NCBI RefSeq assembly: GCF_001676785.2
Contig: NZ_CP015910.2
Location: forward strand, 2,852,001-2,916,000
DNA from: Brachyspira hyodysenteriae ATCC 27164
GTDB lineage: Bacteria; Spirochaetota; Brachyspiria; Brachyspirales; Brachyspiraceae
Direction: 5' to 3'
Length of the DNA: 64,000 bases
The stretch's first letter is position 1, and the number at the start of each line of letters is the position of its first letter. Below the pieces are notes generated by a model. It made no database searches, had not been told where the DNA came from, and saw nothing but the letters and a program-made list of their open reading frames with translations. Positions 1 to 63,848 of this stretch are shown piece by piece. Made by a program: the position numbers and the translations under genes.

Positions 1-146
1 TGTTTTAAACTGTTATTTTAGCTGCCCGCCCAGGATTTTTTTAAATTTATTATGTACTAAGCGCACGCAGAGCAGAATTTAAAATATAGAATAATTTATA
101 ATTATAATTTAAATCATATATATATAAATTAGCCTACCGTGCGTTA
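1..146 (-). repeat. CGCACG/GGGTGGG composite repeat, copy R1 (cut by window start)
   Basis: Reverse-orientation copy. The G-box complement GCTGCCCGCCCAGG is at 21-34, CGCACGCAG at 62-70 and ACCGTGCG at 136-143. The outer box would lie left of the window. It sits just downstream of modA. Spacings match the ten other copies. Confidence 0.8.
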
Positions 147-12728: not shown

Positions 12729-12938
12729 ACGCACGGTGAGCTGATTTTTATTTATTATTAACATTATAATTCAAATATATCTAATATTTACAAAATATTA
12801 TTCTACGTGCGGTGAGTACGCTATAAATTTAAAAAAATCCTGGGTGGGCAGCTATAAATTCTAATTAAGCAAAAAGAAAATATAAAGTAAAAATTACAAA
12901 TTAAAGTTATAAGCCTATAGGGCGGGCAAATGTAATTA
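12729..12938 (+). repeat. Composite intergenic repeat, copy R2
   Basis: Forward copy with all four landmarks: CGCACGGTGAGC (from 12730), CGTGCGGTGAG (from 12805), TGGGTGGGCAGC (12841-12852) and AGGGCGGGCAAATG (12919-12932). It fills most of the gap between the convergent 3' ends of scpB and the outer-membrane-type gene. Confidence 0.88.
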
Positions 12939-13723: not shown

Positions 13724-13726
13724 ATT

Positions 13727-14012
13727 GTTGCTAATAAAAATTGTTCGCTTATAATCCTCTGCCATTCTTGCGAATGCCAGAGGCTCACAATTTTTATGGT
13801 TGTTGCTAATAAAAATTGTTCGCTTATAATCCTCTGCCATTCTTGCGAATGCCAGAGGCTCACAATTTTTATGGTTGTTGCTAATAAAAATTGTTCGCTT
13901 ATAATCCTCTGCCATTCTTGCGAATGCCAGAGGCTCACAATTTTTATGGTTATTGCTAATAAAAATTGTTCACTTATAACCATATGACATTCGAGGCTTA
14001 CAATTTTTATTT
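13727..14012. repeat. Tandem array of nested hairpins, 75-bp period (copies H1-H4)
   Basis: Three near-identical units start at 13731, 13806 and 13881; a fourth, internally shortened, starts at 13956. Each has an outer stem ATAAAAATTGT / ACAATTTTTAT and an inner stem CCTCTGCCATTC / GAATGCCAGAGG with one mismatch and loop TTGC. The units are contiguous with no unique spacers, so this is not a CRISPR array. The array separates the Shine-Dalgarno of the minus-strand gene from its start codon. Confidence 0.93.
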
Positions 14013-23628: not shown

Positions 23629-23835
23629 TACGCACGGAGAGATAAACTAAAATATTAATTAATTTATTATTCAAATTTTTATTACATCAATAATTTAGTT
23701 AATTGTGCGTTGAGTAAAGCAAAAAAATTTAATTACCGCTTGGTGGGCTAAAATTTCTAATTAAGCTATAAGAACAATAAATATTAAAATTCAAAATAAA
23801 GCAGTAAATTTTAAAGGGCGGAGTTTTAAATAAAT
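23629..23835 (+). repeat. Composite intergenic repeat, copy R3
   Basis: CGCACGGAGAG (23631), TTGTGCGTTGAG (23703), TTGGTGGGC (23740-23748) and AAAGGGCGG (23813-23821). The second arm is degenerate. A further remnant of the arm (CTATAAATATAATTAAT and GAAGCAGTGAATTTTAA) lies at about 23971-24020. Confidence 0.82.
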
Positions 23836-24038: not shown

Positions 24039-24246
24039 TAATTACATTTGCCCACCCTTTAGGCTTATTATTTTTATTTGAAATTATAATCTTTTATTTC
24101 TTTTTGTTCTATCTGTTATTTTTGCTGCCCACCCAAGATTTTTTTTAAATTTATAGTTCATTCACCGCACGCAGAATAAAGCTAAAAATATAGATTTATT
24201 TGCAATTCAAATTTTATTATATTGTTAATTTTGTTTACCGTGCGTA
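24039..24246 (-). repeat. Composite intergenic repeat, copy R4
   Basis: Reverse copy: TTTGCCCACCCTTTAGGC (from 24047), GCTGCCCACCCAAG (24124-24137), CACCGCACGCAG (from 24163) and TTTACCGTGCG (ending 24244). It abuts the stop codon of the TPR gene at 24250. Confidence 0.88.
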
Positions 24247-24249
24247 AAG

Positions 24250-24921
24250 TCATTTCAAACCATATTTATTTTGAAGATTTTTTATATTATTTTTAGCTAT
24301 GTTATTATTAGAATCTAATTTCAAAGCCTTTTTATAATCTTTTAATGCATCTTTATACTGTCCTAAATTTTCTTTAGATACTCCTCTGTTATTATAAACA
24401 TCGCTATAACTAGGGTTTAATTCTATAGATTTATCAAAATCTTTAATAGCTTCTTTATATTGTCCTAAATTTCCTTTAGCAAGTCCCCTGTTATTATAAG
24501 CATTACTATCATTAGGGTCTAACTCTATTGTTTTATCATAGTCTTTAATAGCTTCTTCATACTGTCCTAAATATTTTTTAGCAATTCCTCTGTTATTATA
24601 AGCATTACTATAATTATGGTTTAACTCTATTGCTTTGTCATAGTCTTTTATAGATTCTTCATACTGTCCTAAATTTTTTTTAGCAATTCCTCTGTTATTA
24701 TAAGAATCACTATCATTAGGGTTTAACTCTATAGCTTTATCATAGTCTTTTATAGATTCTTCATACTGTCCTAAATTTACTTTAGTAATTCCTCTGTTAT
24801 AATAAGTATTACTATTATTAGGAGCTAACTCTATTGCTTTATCAAAAGATTCTATAGCTTCTTTGTATTTTCTCTCTTTAAAATAATTTAAACCTTCTTC
24901 ATAATATTGTTCTGATGACAT
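24250..24921 (-). CDS. TPR protein with six nearly identical repeats
   Basis: A 223-aa protein made almost only of 34-residue TPR units: YYNRGITKVNLGQYEESIKD, YDKAIELNPNDSDSYNNRGI and so on. Neighbouring units are close to identical also at DNA level, with a 102-bp period. No signal peptide or membrane segment; the last ~20 residues form a capping helix. GAGGT lies upstream of the ATG. The gene sits between intergenic repeat copies on both sides. Very similar units suggest recent expansion by unequal recombination. Likely a protein-binding scaffold; partner unknown. Confidence 0.85.
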   Translation of the reverse strand: MSSEQYYEEGLNYFKERKYKEAIESFDKAIELAPNNSNTYYNRGITKVNLGQYEESIKDYDKAIELNPNDSDSYNNRGIAKKNLGQYEESIKDYDKAIELNHNYSNAYNNRGIAKKYLGQYEEAIKDYDKTIELDPNDSNAYNNRGLAKGNLGQYKEAIKDFDKSIELNPSYSDVYNNRGVSKENLGQYKDALKDYKKALKLDSNNNIAKNNIKNLQNKYGLK

Positions 24922-24997: not shown

Positions 24998-25196
24998 AAC
25001 CCACCCTTTAGGCTTATTATTTTTATTTGAAATTATGACTTTTTATTTCTTTAAAGTTTAAACAGAATTGTTAACGCCCACCCCAGTTTTATTTAAATTT
25101 ATAGTGTATTCACCGCACGGAGAGTAAAGCTAAATATATAGATTCATTTGCAATTCAAATTTTATTATTATTGTTAATTTTGTTCACCGTGTGTTA
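24998..25196 (-). repeat. Composite intergenic repeat, copy R5 (shares palindrome with R6)
   Basis: Reverse arm CCCACCCTTTAGGC (from 25001) and CGCCCACCCCAG (25075-25086), then CACCGCACGG (25111-25120) and CACCGTGTG (25185-25193). Confidence 0.85.
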
Positions 25197-25325
25197 TATA
25201 ACGTTTTAAAATTTAAACAAAACTTGGGTGGGTGCTAACAAATTATAATTAAGCTATAAATATAATTAATTGTTGTAATTCAAAATAAAGCAGTAAACTT
25301 GAAAGGGCGGGGTATTAAATAGAGT
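25112..25325 (+). repeat. Composite intergenic repeat, copy R6 (second arm on the R5 palindrome)
   Basis: Uses the same inverted pair as R5 but has its own rightward arm: TTGGGTGGGTGC (25224-25235) and AAAGGGCGGGG (25302-25312). R5 and R6 together form a two-armed, roughly symmetric structure. Confidence 0.82.
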
Positions 25326-25333
25326 TTTAAAGC

Positions 25334-25544
25334 TTAATTACATTTGCCCACCCTTTATCTTTATTATTTAATTTGTAATTATTATTTTTTATTTCTTTAA
25401 AATTTAAATAGAATTTCTAACAACCTACCCAGGATTTTTTTAAATTTACAGAGCATTCACCGCACGCAGAATAAAATTAAAAATCTAAATTTATTTATAA
25501 TTCTAGTTTTATTATATTGTTAATTTCGTTTACCGTGCGTAGAG
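25334..25544 (-). repeat. Composite intergenic repeat, copy R7
   Basis: TTTGCCCACCCTTTATC (from 25343), CAACCTACCCAGG (25431-25443), CACCGCACGCAG (from 25458) and TTACCGTGCG (25530-25539). The 687-bp gap between the TPR gene and the zinc-ribbon gene is filled by R5, R6 and R7. Confidence 0.88.
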
Positions 25545-26735: not shown

Positions 26736-27233
26736 TTATTTATTGCTGCTTATACGCTCTTTTATCATTATCTCTATTTCTGTAGGAGTATAAACAATAC
26801 ATTCATTATATTTATTTGTATCGTATTTTTTTATTGATTTTATTTTACCGCCTATCCATAATTTTGGATCATATTCATCGCCTAATAAAAAAGTTATTTT
26901 TGAATAATTGGAATATTTTTCTCTATCATAAGCCAATTCTTCAAAAACAAATCTCCATCTATTTTTAGTAAATGCCATTGATATATGAAGCGGATCAAAC
27001 ATAAGTCCTGATTTAACTATATCATCTTTATCATTTGGAATATTTCCTGTATAATTAAATATTTCAATTAAATCTCCTTTGGATTTATCAATTTCAATTA
27101 GTCTTCCAAAAGCGTAGTTTTCTTCAATATTAAAATTTATTTTTGAATAGTTTTTAGTATTGTCCTTTATATCATTTGATAAAAACAAAGGAATAAAAAA
27201 TATATTGCCTTCTTTTTTTTCAAAATATTTCAT
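26736..27233 (-). CDS. Imm26-like immunity-family protein
   Basis: 165-aa soluble protein. The N-terminal EGNIFFIPLFLSND, then YAFGRLIEIDKSKGDLIEIF and NIPNDKDDIVKSGLMFDPLH, fits the Imm26 pattern (G-x-x-F-x-I-P-L, G-R-I/L, I-x-I-F). Imm26 proteins are predicted to neutralise polymorphic toxins. No toxin gene is visible in the window, so it would be an orphan. The assignment rests on short motifs only. The gene ends 2 bp from the 3' end of the convergent zinc-ribbon gene, with no terminator between them. Confidence 0.5.
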   Translation of the reverse strand: MKYFEKKEGNIFFIPLFLSNDIKDNTKNYSKINFNIEENYAFGRLIEIDKSKGDLIEIFNYTGNIPNDKDDIVKSGLMFDPLHISMAFTKNRWRFVFEELAYDREKYSNYSKITFLLGDEYDPKLWIGGKIKSIKKYDTNKYNECIVYTPTEIEIMIKERISSNK

Positions 27234-27260: not shown

Positions 27261-27345
27261 ATGCACGCTAATAGGATTATAAATATGCATTAGTTTAATA
27301 ATCGAATTTTAATAAATTAAATATTAATCGTGCGTTGAGTAAAGC
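27261..27345 (+). repeat. Composite repeat, copy R8 (palindrome only, no G-box arms)
   Basis: TGCACGC (from 27262) and TCGTGCGTTGAGTAAAGC (27328-27345), 67 bp apart. The arm that should follow is absent because the coding end of the AlkD-like gene begins here. Confidence 0.6.
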
Positions 27346-42632: not shown

Positions 42633-44468
42633 TTATACTTTAAAGAAGCTCATAGCATTAACTAATTCTTCAGCCTGAGTAAGCAAAGAACTAGATGATG
42701 CAGAAGTATGCTCTACTAATGCGGCATTTTGCTGAGTTACTGCATCCATATCTGTTATTGCTTTATTAACCTGCTGAACTCCGGATTGCTGTTCTAATGC
42801 TGTTGTACTTATATCGTCCATAAGTTTTGAAGTTACATCTATTTTATCTTGAATATCTTTAAATATCTCTTGTGATTCTCTTGCTGATTCTGTAGCTTTA
42901 GTAATTTTTTCATATGCACTATCAACTAAGTTAGTGATATCTTTTACTGATGACTGAGTAGTCTGAGCCAAATTCCTAACTTCACTAGCTACAACAGCAA
43001 AACCTTTTCCCTGATCTCCGGCACGAGCCGCTTCTACTGCAGCATTCAAAGCAAGTATATTAGTTTGGAATGCTATATCTTCTATTATTTTTGTAATGTT
43101 TTTTATTTTTGTACTAGCTTCATTAACTTCTTCTATATTTTGAACTGTATCTAAAATTATACTTCCTGCATGCTCAATAGAAGCTTTTGAGTTAATCATC
43201 ATTTTATTTCCGTCTACTGATTTATTTGTAGATGATATAATAGTTGAAGCCATCTCTTCCATTGATGAAGCTGTTTCCTGCAAACTAGATGCTTGAGTAT
43301 CTGTTCTTCTTGATAAGTCTTCACTGTCTTTTGAAAGAGCTCTAGCACTATTAGTTATTTCATCAGCAGACACTCTAACTTTCATAATAATATCAAGAAG
43401 TACATCACGCATATTAAAGAAAGAATTTGCAAGCATACCTAATTCATCCTCTCTATTAATATTCTGATGTTCATAAACCAAATTACCCTGTGATATTTCT
43501 TTAGCAAATAATACAAGCGAAATTAATGGTTTGGTTATAGTCTTTATATAAAGAGAAACTATAAAGCATGCTAATATTATAAAAAATGGTCCTATTGTAG
43601 ATGTTCTGAAAATTATACCTGTTATATCTTTATAAATTTGACTATTATAATTTGCAAATATAACAGACCAAGGCATTATAGTTATATTTTTATAAGCAGC
43701 AGAACGTTTATTTTTATTATTCCCAAACACATAAGATTCTATAACACCCTCTGATGTAGTCTTTGTTATCTCATAAACTTGAGGTAATGAAGTACCGATT
43801 CTGTTATGATCGGACGAAAGCATGATAATACCTTTATCATTTGCTATTGTTATATCGCCGTCAAAATTAATATTATCAATGAAATCTTTATTAACTTTTC
43901 CTAAATCTATATTTATATAAACAATACCCATCAAGTTTCCTGCAGAATTGAATAATCCTTTACAAAGAAGTATAGATTGAGAATCTTTTGTAGTAACATC
44001 AGCATAAGTACCATTATAATTATTTGCTTTTAATCTTGTAAATAATTGAGGGTCAGAATCAGATATAGATGTACCTTCAAGAGACGGATTATCACTATCA
44101 ACTATTACCTTTCCATTAACATCTGCTAATCCCATATTAAGGGCATATCTATTTACAGAAGCAAAATCTTTTAATCTATTTATACTTTGCTGTTTCACAT
44201 TTACATCATTAGTATAAAGAATATTAAATACTGTTGATGATTTAGAATATGTATCAATAGCCAACAGCTGTTCATGCAGCACCATATCTATCATAGAAGC
44301 ATATCCTGAAACTGTAGATTTAAAACCATTTAAAGTTGCTCTTTTTACAGCCCTTGTAGATGATAATACTGAAAGCGTACCTAATATAAAAATTGTAGCA
44401 AAAATAATAATACTTATAATAAAAGGAACTTTAAAAGATAAGCTTTTGAAACTATTCATTTTTCTCAT
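42633..44468 (-). CDS. Methyl-accepting chemotaxis protein (paralogue A of a tandem pair)
   Basis: 611-aa receptor: N-terminal [20 protein letters not shown] (TM1), a double-Cache-like sensor (residues ~40-280) with [18 protein letters not shown] and [22 protein letters not shown]2 near 290, HAMP, then the signalling coil with [20 protein letters not shown] and [16 protein letters not shown]. Ends VNAMSFFKV without a docking pentapeptide. About 200 bp separate it from paralogue B upstream; each has a terminator, so they are transcribed separately. The C-terminal halves are nearly the same and the sensors differ more, which suggests different ligands. Confidence 0.93.
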
Positions 44469-44613
44469 ACATAAAAACCTTAATAAAAAAATAATTGTTT
44501 TAATATATATTTAATTCGAATAATTTAAATATAAAAATAGAAAAAAATTACAATTTTTTATTAAAAATTAGAATTTAAATATTTTTTATTATATTTATCT
44601 AACATAAAAAGTA

Positions 44614-44648
44614 CAAAAAGGGTTACTTCCATTAGGAAATAACCCTTT
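44614..44648 (-). terminator. Terminator after the chemoreceptor at 44672
   Basis: Perfect stem AAAGGGTTA / TAACCCTTT; five T follow on the minus strand. Confidence 0.85.
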
Positions 44649-44671
44649 AACATATGCATTAAAATGAAATA

Positions 44672-46513
44672 TTAAACTTTGAAAAAGCTCATAGCATTTA
44701 CTAATTCTTCAGCCTGATTAAGTAAAGAAGTAGATGAAGCTGAAGCCTGTTCTACTAAAGCGGCATTCTGCTGAGTTACTGTATCCATATCTGTAACTGC
44801 TCTATTAACCTGCTCTACACCTTCATGCTGTTCTACTGCTGTTGAGCTTATATCCTGCATTATTTTTGCTGTATTTTCTATTTTTCCCTGAAGCTCGCTG
44901 AATATATCCTGAGAAACTCTAGCAGATTCTGTAGCTTTATTTATCTTTTCATAGGCATTATCTACCAAATGAGTAATATCTTTCACTGATGACTGAGTAG
45001 TTTGAGCCAAATTTCTAACTTCACTAGCTACAACCGCAAAACCTTTACCCATATCCCCTGCTCTTGCTGCCTCTACTGCCGCATTCAAAGCAAGTATATT
45101 AGTTTGGAAAGCAATATCTTCTATTATTTTAGTAATATCTTTAATTTTAGTGCTGGCATCATAAACTTCTTCTATATTTTTAGTAGTATCAAGTATTATT
45201 TCACCGGCATTTTGAATAGCTTCTCTTGAATCTATCATCATTTTATTACCTTCTATTGACTGATCTGCAGATGATTTTATTGTAGAAGCCATTTGTTCCA
45301 TTGATGAAGCAGTCTCTTCCAAACTTGCAGCCTGCGCCTCTGTACGTTTTGATAAATCAACACTTCCTGAAGAAAGCTCCTTAGCATTTATTCTTATTTC
45401 ATCCGCTGAAGTTCTTACTTTAATAATAATATCTGAAAGTCTATCTCTCATATCGAAGAACGAGTTAGCTAATACGCCTAATTCATCTTTACGTTTTATA
45501 TTTCTATGAGTAGATGTTAAATCTCCATTAGAAATTTCTCTTGATATAAGAACTAATTCATCTAAAGGTTTGGTAATACTCTTAATATACATGAATATTA
45601 ATATAGTACATAATATTATAAAGAGAGGTCCGATTATCACAGTACGAAGAATAGTATATTTTATTTCTTTATATATTTCACTGTCTGATTTTGCAAATAT
45701 AACAGCCCAAGGCATTAAAGAAACATTTTTATAAGCTGCAGAACGTTTGCCTTCATGACCTTCATAATCAAAAGATTCTATTATTCCTTCATTTGATGTT
45801 TTTATTATACTGTAAACATCAGGTAAATTCCCACCTATACGCTTACTATCTGATGATAATATAATGTTTCCATCTCTATTAGCAACTGTTATGCGTCCGT
45901 TAATATTTAAATTTCCTATAAAGTCTTTATTTACTTTTCCTAAATCCAAGTTGATATAAACTAAACCTACAAAATCTCCTTGAGAATTTTTCACTCCTCC
46001 GCAAAGTAATAAAGCCTGTCCGCCTGTTGTAGATGATATGCTTGTATAATTATCAAAAGAAAATTTATAATTATTAGCCTTCATAAACGAAAATAAATGT
46101 TTATGAATTTCTGCTATAGATGCTCCTACAAGTTTAGGATTAGAACTATCAAACAAAACTTTTCCATTCATATCTGCTAATCCTATATTTATGGCATAAG
46201 TATTTACTGAAGCAAAATCTTTTAATCTCTTTAAAGCTTCATTTTTTAATACAGGATCATCTATACCTGTTATACCGTTAGCTAATGTACCTGATTGGGC
46301 ATAAGTTGCTATCGCTAATTTCTGCTCATGAAGCACCATATCTATCATATGTGAATAACCTGAAACTGTAGCAGAAAAACCTTCTAATGCTGCTTTTCTT
46401 ATAGCTCTTGATGAAGACCAAATTGAAATAGAAGCCAATGTAACTATTGTAATAAAAATGATGGAACTTATTATAATTGGTACTTTAAATGATAAACTAT
46501 GTATTTTTTTCAT
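44672..46513 (-). CDS. Methyl-accepting chemotaxis protein (paralogue B of a tandem pair)
   Basis: 613 aa with the same order as paralogue A: TM1 in [20 protein letters not shown], a Cache-like sensor with [20 protein letters not shown] and [22 protein letters not shown]2 near residue 290, HAMP and a signalling coil with [20 protein letters not shown]. The tip [17 protein letters not shown] is the same as in A. The ATG at 46513 has GAGG upstream and its promoter is at 46596-46623. The sensor domains share the frame but differ in the ligand region, fitting duplication and divergence. Confidence 0.93.
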
Positions 46514-47994: not shown

Positions 47995-49680
47995 ATGAAT
48001 AATAGTACATTATATATCATAATAGCGGTAATATTTATTATTATATTAATATCTACAATCATAATGATAAAAAATATATTCAGCAAAAAAGTTCATAAAC
48101 CTTCAAAAAACACAAAGAAAAAAATGCATGAATTAAGAAAAACAGTTTCTTTAAATCCTAAAGATTTAGATTCTCTATATGAATTAGCTCTCATAGAAGA
48201 AGAATATCAGGAATTATCAGGGGCATTGCCAAAATATGAGTTTTTATTAAGCAAAAGATATTTTAAAGATAATGATATAAATGAAATAGAAATATATAAA
48301 AAACTAGAAGAAGGATATGATAAACTTGAAAATAAAGAAAATAGCTTTAAATATGCTATGATGATATCTAAGTTAGAACCAAATAATATTGATTATGCTG
48401 TAAAAATAGGAAATGTTTTAGGACAGGAAGGAAAATATAAATTAGCATCTGAATATTTTAATAAAGTTATAATAGCAAAAGAAAATCTAAGCATAGAAGA
48501 AGCTAGAACAGCTGCTTTATCTTTTTTCATGATTAAAGATTATAAAAAATCTATAATATTTTTAGAAGCACTGTATAAAAAAATATTAAATAATAAAGAA
48601 ACTGACATATCAGAAATTTATAATATTGAAATATTACTTATTTCTTTATACATATCAGCAGATGAACTTAATAGAGCAATAACATTTTTAGAACAAATAT
48701 TGTCCAATAAGAACATAAAAGAAGATCATAAGATGTATATTAACAGGATATATATGTATATATTATATAAACTTTCTGATAATGATAAGTTTCTTTCTAA
48801 ATATAAAGAATTAAAAGCATATTATAAACTAGATGAAGCAAAAGAAGAATATGCTCCATTAATATTTGATTTTGCCTTTTATTCATATTTCTTAAAAGAT
48901 ATAGACACTTCTATAAGCTACTTTAAAAAATTAAATTCATTTCATAAATTGGAATATAGTGTTTATTATTTGGATCAAATACTAGAGTATCTTAATGAGG
49001 TTAATAAAGCATTTACTCAATTAACTAAATTAAGAAACGCTATGAAATTAAATGATGAAAAATATAAGAATGAAAATTATGAAAAATACATAGATTCTGA
49101 ATTAATAGATATTTGGGAATTAGTATTAAGTTTGTGGCAGGGTACATTTATTAAATTTGATTACATTACTTCTAATACTACTCAGAATCCAGAAAATAAA
49201 ATGGATATAGATAAAATTTTGGCTGAATTAAATAATGCCTCTAATGAAAATGATAATATTAAAAATACTAATCTAAATGAAATAGATAAAATATATTCTT
49301 TAAATTTAAATAATTTTAAAAAACTATGTAAGAATTTAATTCAAAACAAATTATCGTATTCTATAATGCAGGAATATACTGATAATGTAATAAGTTATAA
49401 TTACGGAGATGAAGTTAATTACTTAGCATATCATATAACAAAAAGCAGAAAAGACTTAACATTAATTTCCGTAAAAAGATGGAAAAATACTGAGGTAGGA
49501 GAACTTATAATAAGAGATTTTTTACTTATGGTAAATGAATCGGGTGCCAAAAATGGTATATTAATTCTGCCTGTAAGATTATCTAATAGTGCTAAAAGCT
49601 ATGCCAAACATAATGATAAAATTACAGTTTATACAAGAAGCCAATTTAATTCATTTTTGAAAAGTAATTTTACAAACTAA
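47995..49680 (+). CDS. Membrane-anchored TPR protein with Mrr-like C-terminal domain (copy 1 of 3)
   Basis: 561 aa. One N-terminal membrane segment (residues ~4-25, LYIIIAVIFIIILISTIIMI) with a Lys-rich stretch after it, so the rest is probably cytoplasmic. Residues ~40-390 are helical TPR-like repeats (LEPNNIDYAVKIGNVLGQEG, YKLASEYFNKVIIAKENL). Residues ~435-561 resemble the Mrr/restriction-endonuclease fold: FKKLCKNLIQNKLSYSIMQE, YNYGDEVNYLAY, DLTLISVKRWKNTEVGELII and NGILILPVRLSNSAKSYAKH, which corresponds to the D…QxK…fs-A pattern. The Gln/Glu before the Lys is Ser (ISVKRW), so nuclease activity is doubtful. Function unknown. Confidence 0.8.
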   Translation: MNNSTLYIIIAVIFIIILISTIIMIKNIFSKKVHKPSKNTKKKMHELRKTVSLNPKDLDSLYELALIEEEYQELSGALPKYEFLLSKRYFKDNDINEIEIYKKLEEGYDKLENKENSFKYAMMISKLEPNNIDYAVKIGNVLGQEGKYKLASEYFNKVIIAKENLSIEEARTAALSFFMIKDYKKSIIFLEALYKKILNNKETDISEIYNIEILLISLYISADELNRAITFLEQILSNKNIKEDHKMYINRIYMYILYKLSDNDKFLSKYKELKAYYKLDEAKEEYAPLIFDFAFYSYFLKDIDTSISYFKKLNSFHKLEYSVYYLDQILEYLNEVNKAFTQLTKLRNAMKLNDEKYKNENYEKYIDSELIDIWELVLSLWQGTFIKFDYITSNTTQNPENKMDIDKILAELNNASNENDNIKNTNLNEIDKIYSLNLNNFKKLCKNLIQNKLSYSIMQEYTDNVISYNYGDEVNYLAYHITKSRKDLTLISVKRWKNTEVGELIIRDFLLMVNESGAKNGILILPVRLSNSAKSYAKHNDKITVYTRSQFNSFLKSNFTN

Positions 49681-49838
49681 TAAGAAATAGCTCTCATACT
49701 TACATATTTATTGAATATTATTATCAATAACAGCTAAAATTATCCGAAATATTATTTTTTATGAACAGAATATATTTAAACTTTTTTAGTTTTTGTATAT
49801 AATATAATAAATAATATAATAGAAAAGCGGATAAATAT

Positions 49839-51518
49839 ATGAGCAATAGTACATTATACATCATAATAGCTGTAATATTCATTGCTATATTAATAGCTAC
49901 AATTATAATGATAAAAAACATGTTCTCTAAAAACAAAAATATTCCTGAACGAAATACTAGAAGAATGATGGAAGAACTAAAGAAAAAGATAGCAGAAAAT
50001 GAAAATGATTTTGACTCTCTTTACAAATTAGCAATGTTAGAAGAACAATACGATGATATAAGCAGTGCATTAGGAAAATATGAAAAGCTTATAGCAGAAA
50101 GATATTTTTCTGAGCATAATATAAATGAAGTAGAAATATACAAAAAATTAGAGCCGGCATACTATCAATTAGGGGATAAAGAAAAAAGCTTTAAATATTC
50201 TCTATTAATTTCAAAAGCCGAGCCTAATAATATTTATTATGCTATAAAATTGGGTACTACATTGGGAAAAGAAGGTAAATACAAACTTGCCTGCGAACAT
50301 TTCAATAAAGTAATAGTATCAAAAGAAAATATAGATATAGAAGAAGCTAAAACAGCTGCTTTATCTTTTTTTATGATTAAAGATTATAAAAAATCTATAA
50401 TATTTTTAGAAGAATTATATAAAAAAATATTAAATAATAAAGAAACTGAAGCTTCAGAAATTTATAATCTTGAAATATTGATGATATCTATGTACATATC
50501 AGCAGATGAACTTAATAGAGCAATAACATTTATAGAACAAATATTATCCAACAAGTCTATAAGCGAAGATCATAGATTATATATTAATAAAATGTATATG
50601 TACACATTGTATAGACTTTCTGATAATGAAAGATTTAGAGAGATGTTTAATAATATAAAAAATTCATATAATTTGGAAGATGCTGGCTATAAATATGCAA
50701 CTCTTATATTTGATTTTGCTTTTTATTCATATTTCTTGAAAGATATAGATGCTTCTATAAGATTCTTCACAAGATTAAATTCTTTCCATAAATTGGAATA
50801 TAGTGTTTATTATTTGGATCAAATATTAGAGTACCTTAATGAAGTTAATAAAGCATTTACTCAATTAACTAAATTAAGAAACTCTATGAAATTAAATGAT
50901 GAAAAATATGTAAATGAAAGATACGATAAATATATAGACGGTGAATTAATAAAAATATGGGAAAAAGTATTAGATTTATGGGAAGGAAATTTCTATAATT
51001 TTGAATATATTAATTCTCTAGTTGAAGTTGAAAACACAATCGATGTTGATAAAATATTAAGCGAATATAATATGCAAAAACAACTAGATGATAATAATAA
51101 ACAAAATAGAAATACAAATATAGATTCTATATATTCATTGAGTATGAGTAATTTTAAAAAACTTTGCCAGAATATAATTCAGAATAAATTATCATATTCT
51201 ATAATACAGGAATATTCTGACAATATAATAAACTACGAATACGGCGATGATGTTAACTATTTAGCGTATCCTACTGGTAAAAGCAGAAAAGACATAACAT
51301 TAATCTCTATAAAAAGATGGAAAAACACAGAGGTAGGAGAACTTATAATAAGAGACTTTTTGCTTATGGTTAATGAATCAGGGGCAAAAAATGGAATATT
51401 AATTCTTCCTGTAAGACTATCAAATAGTGCAAAAAGCTATGCAAAACATAATGAGAAGATCACAGTCTATACAAGAAGCCAATTTAATTCATTTTTGAAA
51501 AGTAATTTTGTAAATTAA
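49839..51518 (+). CDS. Membrane-anchored TPR protein with Mrr-like C-terminal domain (copy 2 of 3)
   Basis: 559 aa, closest to copy 1: the N-terminal membrane segment is nearly the same (LYIIIAVIFIAILIATIIMI), the middle TPR part has long shared stretches (YSVYYLDQILEYLNEVNKAF), and the C-terminus is almost identical (WKNTEVGELIIRDFLLMVNE, VRLSNSAKSYAKHNEKITVY). The early TPR region is more divergent. The upstream region repeats a TAGTTTTTGTATATA stretch found before copy 1, so the promoter was duplicated too. The catalytic position again reads ISIKRW with Ser before the basic strand end. Confidence 0.8.
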   Translation: MSNSTLYIIIAVIFIAILIATIIMIKNMFSKNKNIPERNTRRMMEELKKKIAENENDFDSLYKLAMLEEQYDDISSALGKYEKLIAERYFSEHNINEVEIYKKLEPAYYQLGDKEKSFKYSLLISKAEPNNIYYAIKLGTTLGKEGKYKLACEHFNKVIVSKENIDIEEAKTAALSFFMIKDYKKSIIFLEELYKKILNNKETEASEIYNLEILMISMYISADELNRAITFIEQILSNKSISEDHRLYINKMYMYTLYRLSDNERFREMFNNIKNSYNLEDAGYKYATLIFDFAFYSYFLKDIDASIRFFTRLNSFHKLEYSVYYLDQILEYLNEVNKAFTQLTKLRNSMKLNDEKYVNERYDKYIDGELIKIWEKVLDLWEGNFYNFEYINSLVEVENTIDVDKILSEYNMQKQLDDNNKQNRNTNIDSIYSLSMSNFKKLCQNIIQNKLSYSIIQEYSDNIINYEYGDDVNYLAYPTGKSRKDITLISIKRWKNTEVGELIIRDFLLMVNESGAKNGILILPVRLSNSAKSYAKHNEKITVYTRSQFNSFLKSNFVN

Positions 51519-51537
51519 TTATAAATAGGAAAAAAAT

Positions 51538-53220
51538 ATGTTAGATTCTTACATTTATATAATTTTTGTTCCAATATCTATAATAATATTATTAGGTATT
51601 ATTCTATTTTTTAAAACCGTATCAGGCAGCAGCGGAATATATAAACCAAAAAACATAAAAAAGAAAATAGGAGAACTTGAGAAAAAAATAGAAATAAATC
51701 CTAAAGATTATAATTCTATATATGAATTAGCTGTAATAGAAGAACAGTATAACATGCTTGAAAAGGCTTTAGAGAGATATGAAAAATTACTTAATGTTAA
51801 ATATTTTGAAGGTGAAGAATTAAGCATATATAAAAAGCTTGAAGAAATATACAATAAATTAGACAATAAAGAAGAAAAATTAAAATACACTTTGAAAATA
51901 GCACAAATAGATGTTAATAACACATACTATTCTATAAAAGCAGCTACTGAACTAGGAAGAGAGGGTGCTTATAAATTAGCAACTGAATATTTCAACAGAG
52001 TTTTGAACAATAAAAGTGATTTTGAAATATATGAACTTAAAATAGCTGCTATATCATATTTCATGAATAAAGAATATAGAAAAGTTATAAGCATGTTAGA
52101 AGAACTTCATAAAAGATTAAATAGAAATATAAGTAATATTGAAGAAGACTATGATGAAATGATATTAGTAGAAAAAATACTTATATCATTGTACATTATA
52201 ACAGATGAAATAAATAGTGCTAGAGATTTCACAGAAACAATATTATCATCAAGAACAATTAGAAATTATCCTGAATTTCATTTCTTTATAAATAGAATAT
52301 ATTTATATATATTATATAAATCTGATGACAATGAAGCATTTATAAATTTATTCAATCAATATTCAAAGCAGTATAAAATAAATGAAATAAAAAAAGAAGA
52401 AAGTATTATTATTTTAGATTTTGGCTTTTATAATTATTTTATAAAAGATATTAATAGTGCTATGAGCTATTTTGAACATATAAGATTATTTAATGATCCG
52501 GAATTTAACATATATGATTTGGATAATATATTTAATTATTTATCTGAAATTGCAAAAGCTGAAGTACAATTAAAGAAATTAAGAGAAGACATGCAGCTAA
52601 ACAACAACGATAAATATCTAAAAGAAAATTATGAAAAATATGTAAATGCTCAATGTATAGAATCTTGGGAAACCTCTGTAAGATTATGGGAAGAATCTTT
52701 TAATAGTTTAGATAGTATATTAAATTTAATAGAAATAGAAAGAAATGTAGATATTGAAAAAATATTATTAGAATGCAACATAAATGAAAACAATGCTACT
52801 ATAGACACAGTAAGCAGTAAAAAAGTAGATAAAATATATGATATAAGTTTGGCATCTTTCAAGAGCATATGTCAGGATATAATACAGAAAAAACTTTTAT
52901 ATTCAGCTGTACAGGAGTATAATGAAAAATTAATAGATTATGATTACGGAGATGAAGTTAATTATTTAGCATTTGCTGTAAATAAAAGTAAAAAAGATTT
53001 AACATTAATATCTTTCAAACGTTGGAGAAATACAGAAGTAGGAGAACTTGTAATCAGAGACTTTATGCTTCTTATTAATGAAGCTGGAGCAAAAAATGGA
53101 ATACTAGTTTTACCGCTTGAACTAACAAATAGTGCAAGAAGTTATGCCACTCATAATAATAAAATTAAGGTTTACACAAGAAATCAATTTAATTATATGC
53201 TTAGAGACAGCAGAATATAA
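51538..53220 (+). CDS. Membrane-anchored TPR protein with Mrr-like C-terminal domain (copy 3 of 3)
   Basis: 560 aa and the most divergent copy: the membrane segment is IYIIFVPISIIILLGIILFF, the helical middle is only generally alike, but the C-terminal domain is well kept (YDYGDEVNYLAF, LTLISFKRWRNTEVGELVIR, DFMLLINEAGAKNGILVLPL, TNSARSYATHNNKIKVYTRN). Strong conservation of just this domain in all three copies suggests it is the working part. It follows copy 2 by 19 bp and is probably in one transcript. AGGA precedes the ATG. A terminator follows. Confidence 0.8.
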   Translation: MLDSYIYIIFVPISIIILLGIILFFKTVSGSSGIYKPKNIKKKIGELEKKIEINPKDYNSIYELAVIEEQYNMLEKALERYEKLLNVKYFEGEELSIYKKLEEIYNKLDNKEEKLKYTLKIAQIDVNNTYYSIKAATELGREGAYKLATEYFNRVLNNKSDFEIYELKIAAISYFMNKEYRKVISMLEELHKRLNRNISNIEEDYDEMILVEKILISLYIITDEINSARDFTETILSSRTIRNYPEFHFFINRIYLYILYKSDDNEAFINLFNQYSKQYKINEIKKEESIIILDFGFYNYFIKDINSAMSYFEHIRLFNDPEFNIYDLDNIFNYLSEIAKAEVQLKKLREDMQLNNNDKYLKENYEKYVNAQCIESWETSVRLWEESFNSLDSILNLIEIERNVDIEKILLECNINENNATIDTVSSKKVDKIYDISLASFKSICQDIIQKKLLYSAVQEYNEKLIDYDYGDEVNYLAFAVNKSKKDLTLISFKRWRNTEVGELVIRDFMLLINEAGAKNGILVLPLELTNSARSYATHNNKIKVYTRNQFNYMLRDSRI

Positions 53221-55970: not shown

Positions 55971-56170
55971 AACGCACGGTAAATAAATTTAAAAAATTAA
56001 ATTAATTATCAATACAACTTTATTTAAATAATAAAATTGATTAATCGTGCGTTAAATAGATTTTAAATCTAATAAATTTTTGGGCGGGTGTTAACATTTC
56101 TAAATAAGCATCAAAAAAAATTCAAATTAAAATTTTCAAAATACACTATATAGAATAAAGGGCGGGATTC
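55971..56170 (+). repeat. Composite intergenic repeat, copy R9
   Basis: CGCACGGT (55973-55980), TCGTGCGTTAAAT (56045-56057), TTGGGCGGGTG (56080-56090) and AAAGGGCGGG (56157-56166). Confidence 0.85.
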
Positions 56171-56303
56171 ATAGTAATTTTTTTATTATTTTTTAACTTA
56201 AAATTATTATAAAATAATAAGCATAATTATAAATAAAAATTAAATACTATTAATAAATCTATATATCATAATGTGATAATTAAATAAGTTTATATTTAAA
56301 AAT

Positions 56304-56513
56304 TTAATTACACTTCCCTCCCTTTAGATTTATTATCTTATTTTGCAATTTTTATAAAATTTTTATTTTTTATTTATACTGTTATTATAACAACCCACCC
56401 AAGCTGTTTTTAAATTAGCAATTAGCACAACGCACGAAAAACGAAATAATGAATATAGTATTAATTATAAATGCATTTTTATTATATTATAGTAAATAAT
56501 TAACCGTGCGTTA
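56304..56513 (-). repeat. Composite intergenic repeat, copy R10
   Basis: Reverse copy facing R9: CACTTCCCTCCCTTTAG (56311-56327), CAACCCACCCAAG (56391-56403), ACGCACGA (56430-56437) and AACCGTGCG (56503-56511). The G-box nearest R9 is degenerate. The 675-bp gap 55951-56625 is filled by the inverted pair R9 and R10. Confidence 0.85.
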
Positions 56514-63644: not shown

Positions 63645-63848
63645 ACGCACGGTAAGCAGATTTTTATTTTTTAATTTAAATTATAATTCACAATTCACTC
63701 ATACTCAAAATTTTACTCTGCGTGCGGTAATAACGATTCAAATTTTTAAAAAAATATTGGGTGGGAAGCAGAAATAACATAAAAAATTAAAAAGAAAAAT
63801 AGTACAAAAATGTCTGTACTAATAAAAAGTCTAGAGGGCGGGGAGTGA
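63645..63848 (+). repeat. Composite intergenic repeat, copy R11
   Basis: ACGCACGGTAAGC (63645-63657), GCGTGCGGTAA (63720-63730), TTGGGTGGGAAGC (63757-63769) and AGAGGGCGGGGA (63833-63844). It fills the gap between the rnfG terminator and the next gene. Confidence 0.85.

Follow-up and report, generated by a model that had tools for sequence, protein, structure and literature searches.

A periodic intergenic lattice of short, precisely spaced sites in Brachyspira genomes as a candidate protein-bound array

Four short intergenic landmarks of Brachyspira hyodysenteriae, described in an earlier note on this DNA, make up one part of a longer, periodic and near-palindromic lattice, and every locus is a segment of that lattice. 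Purifying selection keeps the landmarks and their spacing copy by copy. The explanation that we find best overall is a dispersed, multi-site lattice of double-stranded DNA bound by one or more sequence-specific proteins, to which we assign a probability of roughly 0.55.

The window is the whole stretch of 64,000 nucleotides that was analysed, C1:2852001-2916000 of the B. hyodysenteriae genome (3.07 Mb, two contigs). Eleven copies or part-copies had been listed there, and the landmarks are present at each interval, in the order given once strand is allowed for. The third and fourth landmarks stand only in a more general form, as the exact strings TGGGTGGGC and AGGGCGGG have only 1-4 occurrences and the true motif is GGGNGGG. 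The window holds 18 landmark hexamers, against a mean of 0.5 in second-order Markov copies of it, and seven exact CGCACG..CGTGCG pairs against none; GGGYGGG has a mean of 0.2 in such copies. The whole genome has 95 CGCACG-CGTGCG units, against 0 for a reversed-pattern control. Chance is thereby ruled out as the source of the pairs.

We read the landmarks as tokens (A for CGCACG, B for CGTGCG, G for GGGNGGG and C for CCCNCCC) across 55 stretches. A single grammar was found, CGCACG-74-CGTGCG-36-GGGYGGG-77-GGGYGGG-43-CCCRCCC-77-CCCRCCC-37-CGCACG, having a period of about 345 bp and dyad centres midway between A and B and midway between G and C. CC-AB-GG is the commonest type of segment, and AB-GG, CC-AB, AB-GG-CC-AB, GG-CC-AB and longer ones also occur. 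The earlier reading had overlooked that landmarks flank many copies on both sides and that the two members of a double are separated by about 345 bp. Segments in the window, with positions counted from its first letter, are the following.

25..143, minus strand: partial chain cut by the window start, with CCCGCCC at 25, CGCACG at 62 and CGTGCG at 138
12730..12926, plus strand: A-B-G-G segment 3' of scpB, with CGCACG at 12730, CGTGCG at 12806, GGGTGGG at 12842 and GGGCGGG at 12920
23631..23829, plus strand: decayed A-B-G-G segment with CGCACG, TGTGCG, TTGGTGGGC and AGGGCGGA
24051..24244, minus strand: C-C-A-B segment, with CCCACCC at 24051 and 24128, CGCACG at 24166 and CGTGCG at 24239
25000..25539, no strand assigned: long chain CC-AB-GG-CC-AB, its second unit with CGCACG at 25461 and CGTGCG at 25534
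27263..27334, minus strand: decayed solitary A-B unit (TGCACG ... CGTGCG)
55973..56510, no strand assigned: ABGG + CCAB
63646..63842, plus strand: A-B-G-G segment

The inner B of the chain at 25000..25539 is decayed to CGTGTG and one C to CCTACCC. At 55973..56510 the G-to-C distance is 156 bp against the usual 43 bp, so that the junction is longer by about 113 bp; the ABGGCCAB at the same place is intact in a related genome. At the site starting at 63646, three related genomes retain the GG part alone.

Some other features of the window were noted. A small TPR gene of 102-bp repeats (24250-24921) lies between two chains, with similar repeat DNA at 9.9-11.4 kb, and the gene of an Imm26-like immunity protein (26736-27233) adjoins a chain. 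A 75-bp tandem repeat with near-identical copies is found at 13725-13992, where a minus-strand ORF starts. Tandemly duplicated gene sets occupy 42633-46513 and 47995-53220: a pair of adjoining ORFs (about 612 aa) and a trio (about 560 aa), 60-83% identical at the DNA level across long stretches.

Chain phase and strand vary freely among loci. The spacing, as had been claimed, is held: over about 1.3 Mb from several genomes the A-B distance is 72-76 in 205 of 209 cases, with just as narrow a range for B-G (35-39) and for G-G (mostly 76-79). A-B units have a polarity: CGCACGGT is the usual reading at one end, and CGCACG with CA, CT or AT after it at the opposite end. The arms fall into two subfamilies, and complete junctions are alpha-beta in 19 cases, beta-beta in four and alpha-alpha in none. 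Where the two GGGNGGG motifs of a junction are informative, their inner bases are discordant in 47 of 50 cases, one motif having T and its counterpart C. The ABGGCCAB form is inverted with the X ends mostly outward (YY 14, XY 5, YX 4), and most copies are other segments. An array of A-B units at G010:C1:2494037-2495625 has a 234-bp period and is direct, in a register different from that of the 345-bp chain.

Selection was assessed by comparing 41 orthologous copies with a related genome that is 94% identical on one test region. GGG landmark sites differ at 24 of 677 positions (3.5%) and spacer G/C sites at 476 of 1467 (32%; Fisher p ~1e-60), where sites within one motif are not independent and the AT-rich spacer alignments carry some gap error. 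Reciprocal ascertainment gave 9/607 (1.5%) against 482/1560 (31%). Landmark divergence is about 9-fold under that of spacer G/C at orthologous, long-resident copies, which is the more striking because spacer G/C sites mutate quickly in an AT-rich genome. The G025 stretches were picked by intact A-B pairs, which biases the CGCACG/CGTGCG rates downward and leaves the GGG rates unbiased. The base inside GGGNGGG differs at 28% in the orthologous copies. Per-position counts show T and A at alternate positions on both sides of CGCACG, extending this site to TNANCGCACGNTNA; further constrained are TT ahead of the first GGGYGGG, TAnA ahead of the second, and a small dyad in the middle of the unit. Single constrained bases of this kind are the pattern expected of protein contacts.

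The earlier claim of selection on distance is likewise borne out, as length changes of at least 4 bp occur in 3 of 106 GG and BG modules and, among 55 intergenic windows matched for divergence, in 14 (p=2e-5). The AT-rich DNA between the landmarks is diverged, as described, at 13.7% against 7.4% in other intergenic DNA; exchange between copies could account for this faster divergence. Such strong selection at single loci, on landmarks as on distances, means that the element does something.

Related genomes had been set beforehand as a place where the proposal of a repeat family might fail. More copies were found there, making up a genus-wide family, and free variation of the spacing outside the window, which would have counted against it, was not seen. 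A-B units (2-146 per genome) are present in 24 of 26 Brachyspira genomes and the B-G-G geometry in 23; among the named records the carriers include B. hampsonii. G001 and G003 have neither, and G019 has two A-B units and no B-G-G; these are the three most diverged genomes on one test region. With three genomes lacking the full element, members of the genus can do without it. None was found in three genomes of other genera of the same family. Phylum-wide, matches to the A-B pattern outside the genus are generally equalled by the reversed control, which a few genomes exceed. Viral contigs gave 37 matches, none of them in DNA below 49% GC, and these were for that reason judged chance. As far as these sequence searches reached, the element appears restricted to Brachyspira. 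Literature searches of open-licence papers found no description of the family, and the earlier note knew of none.

A folded RNA or DNA, one of the functions originally suggested, is disfavoured by covariation tests and by the lack of an Rfam match. What favours such a hairpin family is that the landmarks come as inverted complements, CGCACG with CGTGCG and GGG with CCC. Yet the oriented halves of one copy pair slightly less well than permuted partners from other copies (z -1.5 for 79-mers, -2.7 for 80-mers), the T/C junction bases described above are anti-matched, chain phase and strand vary freely, and the Rfam scan gave 0 matches at gathering score; we regard this as the least probable reading of those weighed. 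The G-runs could alternatively form quadruplexes, since a pair of GGGNGGG tracts separated by about 70 bp supplies four of them, with the GGG tracts invariant and the single base between them variable. However, that single-base loop is nearly strict: 223 of 241 motifs are exact with no GGG-NN-GGG, and 222 of 253 with four, although quadruplexes tolerate two-base loops. Nor would quadruplexes account for the CGCACG sites or for the conservation of the A/T flanks; this reading is very improbable. A further reading is a transcription insulator or terminator between convergent genes. All 77 chains analysed lie outside ORFs, as had been stated for the copies; the supposed absence of a gene-end preference does not hold, the neighbour pairs being 32 convergent, 35 tandem and 8 divergent (convergent against divergent, p=2e-4). 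Convergent and divergent pairs are expected to be about equally frequent on a circular chromosome. This strong convergent bias, and several copies directly 3' of an ordinary terminator hairpin, speak for insulation, whereas the adjoining genes have their own terminators, 35 of the 75 pairs are tandem and stem-loop covariation is absent, which leaves it improbable.

The strongest competitor is a non-autonomous MITE-like element with ABGGCCAB, about 425 bp, as its full form and the landmarks as transposase or recombinase sites in long terminal inverted repeats; a putative enzyme would move it, and recombination between copies would give the other forms. Like a MITE, the element is short, gene-free, inverted-repeat, intergenic and variable in copy number (0-146 between species), and its two arm subfamilies join at junctions in the proportions given above. 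At the scpB site, L067 has scpB followed by mnmG (presumably, from the start of its coding sequence) and no element. In L065 and L066 the order is scpB-ABGGCCAB-mnmG; in L062 and in the window, scpB-ABGG precedes other genes, and G004 has CC-AB-GG; relatives carry ABGG, ABGGCC, ABGGCCAB or CCABGG at this site. From this comparison it follows that copies last across species, that their changes involve whole modules, and that they are located at rearrangement breakpoints. Additionally, a copy missing from G025 is flanked by an imperfect direct repeat of about 17 bp, a single candidate that is a lead and not proof of transposition. The mobile element of the earlier note stands in so far as presence differs between species and copies sit at breakpoints, but purifying selection on each copy is unlike a merely decaying MITE. 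Neutral decay after insertion does not describe landmarks differing at 3.5% against 32% for spacer G/C, and their roughly 9-fold conservation at long-resident copies is beyond what transposition alone explains. Syntenic comparison gave few cleanly bounded presence/absence sites, modules alone mostly differing, and no clear target-site duplication among the loci compared. PF01797, the Y1 (RAYT-type) transposase, was found in 0 of 26 Brachyspira genomes, with positive controls detected. We consider a MITE-like element rather unlikely as the explanation, while the element may have been spread by a mobile mechanism.

Among the options originally put forward, the protein-bound site is the best supported, and a selected, protein-bound array is somewhat more likely than not. 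We infer a protein as the reader of the sites because the constraint is sequence-specific, spacing-specific, non-pairing and on double-stranded DNA. The placement outside ORFs with its convergent bias, and the nearly strict one-base loop of GGGNGGG, also speak for this reading. There would be two types of site: the 14-bp pseudo-dyad TNANCGCACGNTNA, which comprises the A and B landmarks, and GGGYGGG with its conserved A/T flanks. One or more sequence-specific proteins would bind both types along each lattice segment, and the fixed centre-to-centre distances (~74, 36, 77, 43, 77 and 37 bp) would let the bound proteins assemble a defined nucleoprotein complex. A ParB/Noc paralogue is ruled out as the binder: ParB is single-copy in 26 of 26 genomes, carriers and non-carriers alike, and therefore no Noc-like paralogue tracks the element. 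The two 390-aa genes adjoining copies are unrelated to one another.

Of the three species checked, two have their copies concentrated around the GC-skew origin, and the third shows this more weakly. In B. hyodysenteriae there are about 8-11 copies per 100 kb close to the ends of the contig numbering, and 0-1 across most of 0.8-2.0 Mb. The circular mean is 9.8 kb (R=0.64), and the GC-skew origin, estimated from sampled stretches, lies at about 60-80 kb of the 3.04-Mb chromosome. In G004 the circular mean is 1.54 Mb and the skew origin 1.78 Mb (R=0.78, for 100 of 118 copies listed), and clustering is weak in G010 (R=0.27). Both dnaA (G000:C1:1173560) and the single parB (G000:C1:2230938) are far from the GC-skew origin, and with dnaA at 1.17 Mb, clustering around that gene is ruled out. 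A B. pilosicoli genome paper reports no association of oriC with dnaA and great differences between species in the genes at oriC (PMC3532143); the origin clustering is confounded by this variable gene content.

Judged by architecture, the nearest analogue is the enterobacterial BIME. BIMEs are described as mosaic intergenic modules that carry binding sites for several proteins (PMC2817692), and the likeness to BIME/REP extends to some 100 or more intergenic copies, mosaic modules, alternating orientation and fixed linkers. The Brachyspira element indeed has many intergenic copies, regularly spaced and alternating in orientation. It is not a member of that family, since it shows neither REP-type hairpin covariation nor a RAYT (Y1) transposase in the genus, and its landmarks form pairs of short sites separated by 36-77 bp, with a period of about 345 bp. 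BOX of pneumococcus and Correia of Neisseria are modular or inverted-repeat small intergenic elements conserved in sequence end to end. They resemble the lattice in being small, many-copy, intergenic and modular or inverted-repeat, whereas its conservation is limited to landmarks and distances. Noc sites, matS and parS are dispersed single short protein-binding sites with a position bias with respect to origin or terminus. The lattice shares dispersal, position bias and, putatively, protein binding, but is a spaced multi-site array to which the single-copy ParB is unlinked. MITEs differ in turn, as the lattice has landmarks under per-copy purifying selection and no transposase or target duplication shown. 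Integron attC sites came into consideration solely for the imperfect inverted layout.

From the intergenic placement, the origin bias and this analogy, we tentatively suggest that the lattice, like the BIMEs of E. coli, may serve chromosome architecture through looping, supercoil or segregation domains. A doubtful further step would make it a novel class of scaffold, in which two site types at fixed distances are read by a spirochaete protein and spread round the origin to organise or segregate the chromosome. Apparently, a genus-wide repeat family of swine and human gut spirochaetes has hitherto gone undescribed. Its lattice sequence is a concrete bait for a DNA-binding protein, the element offers a way into chromosome organisation for a genus with its origin away from dnaA, and it is a likely substrate of the rearrangements that separate Brachyspira species.
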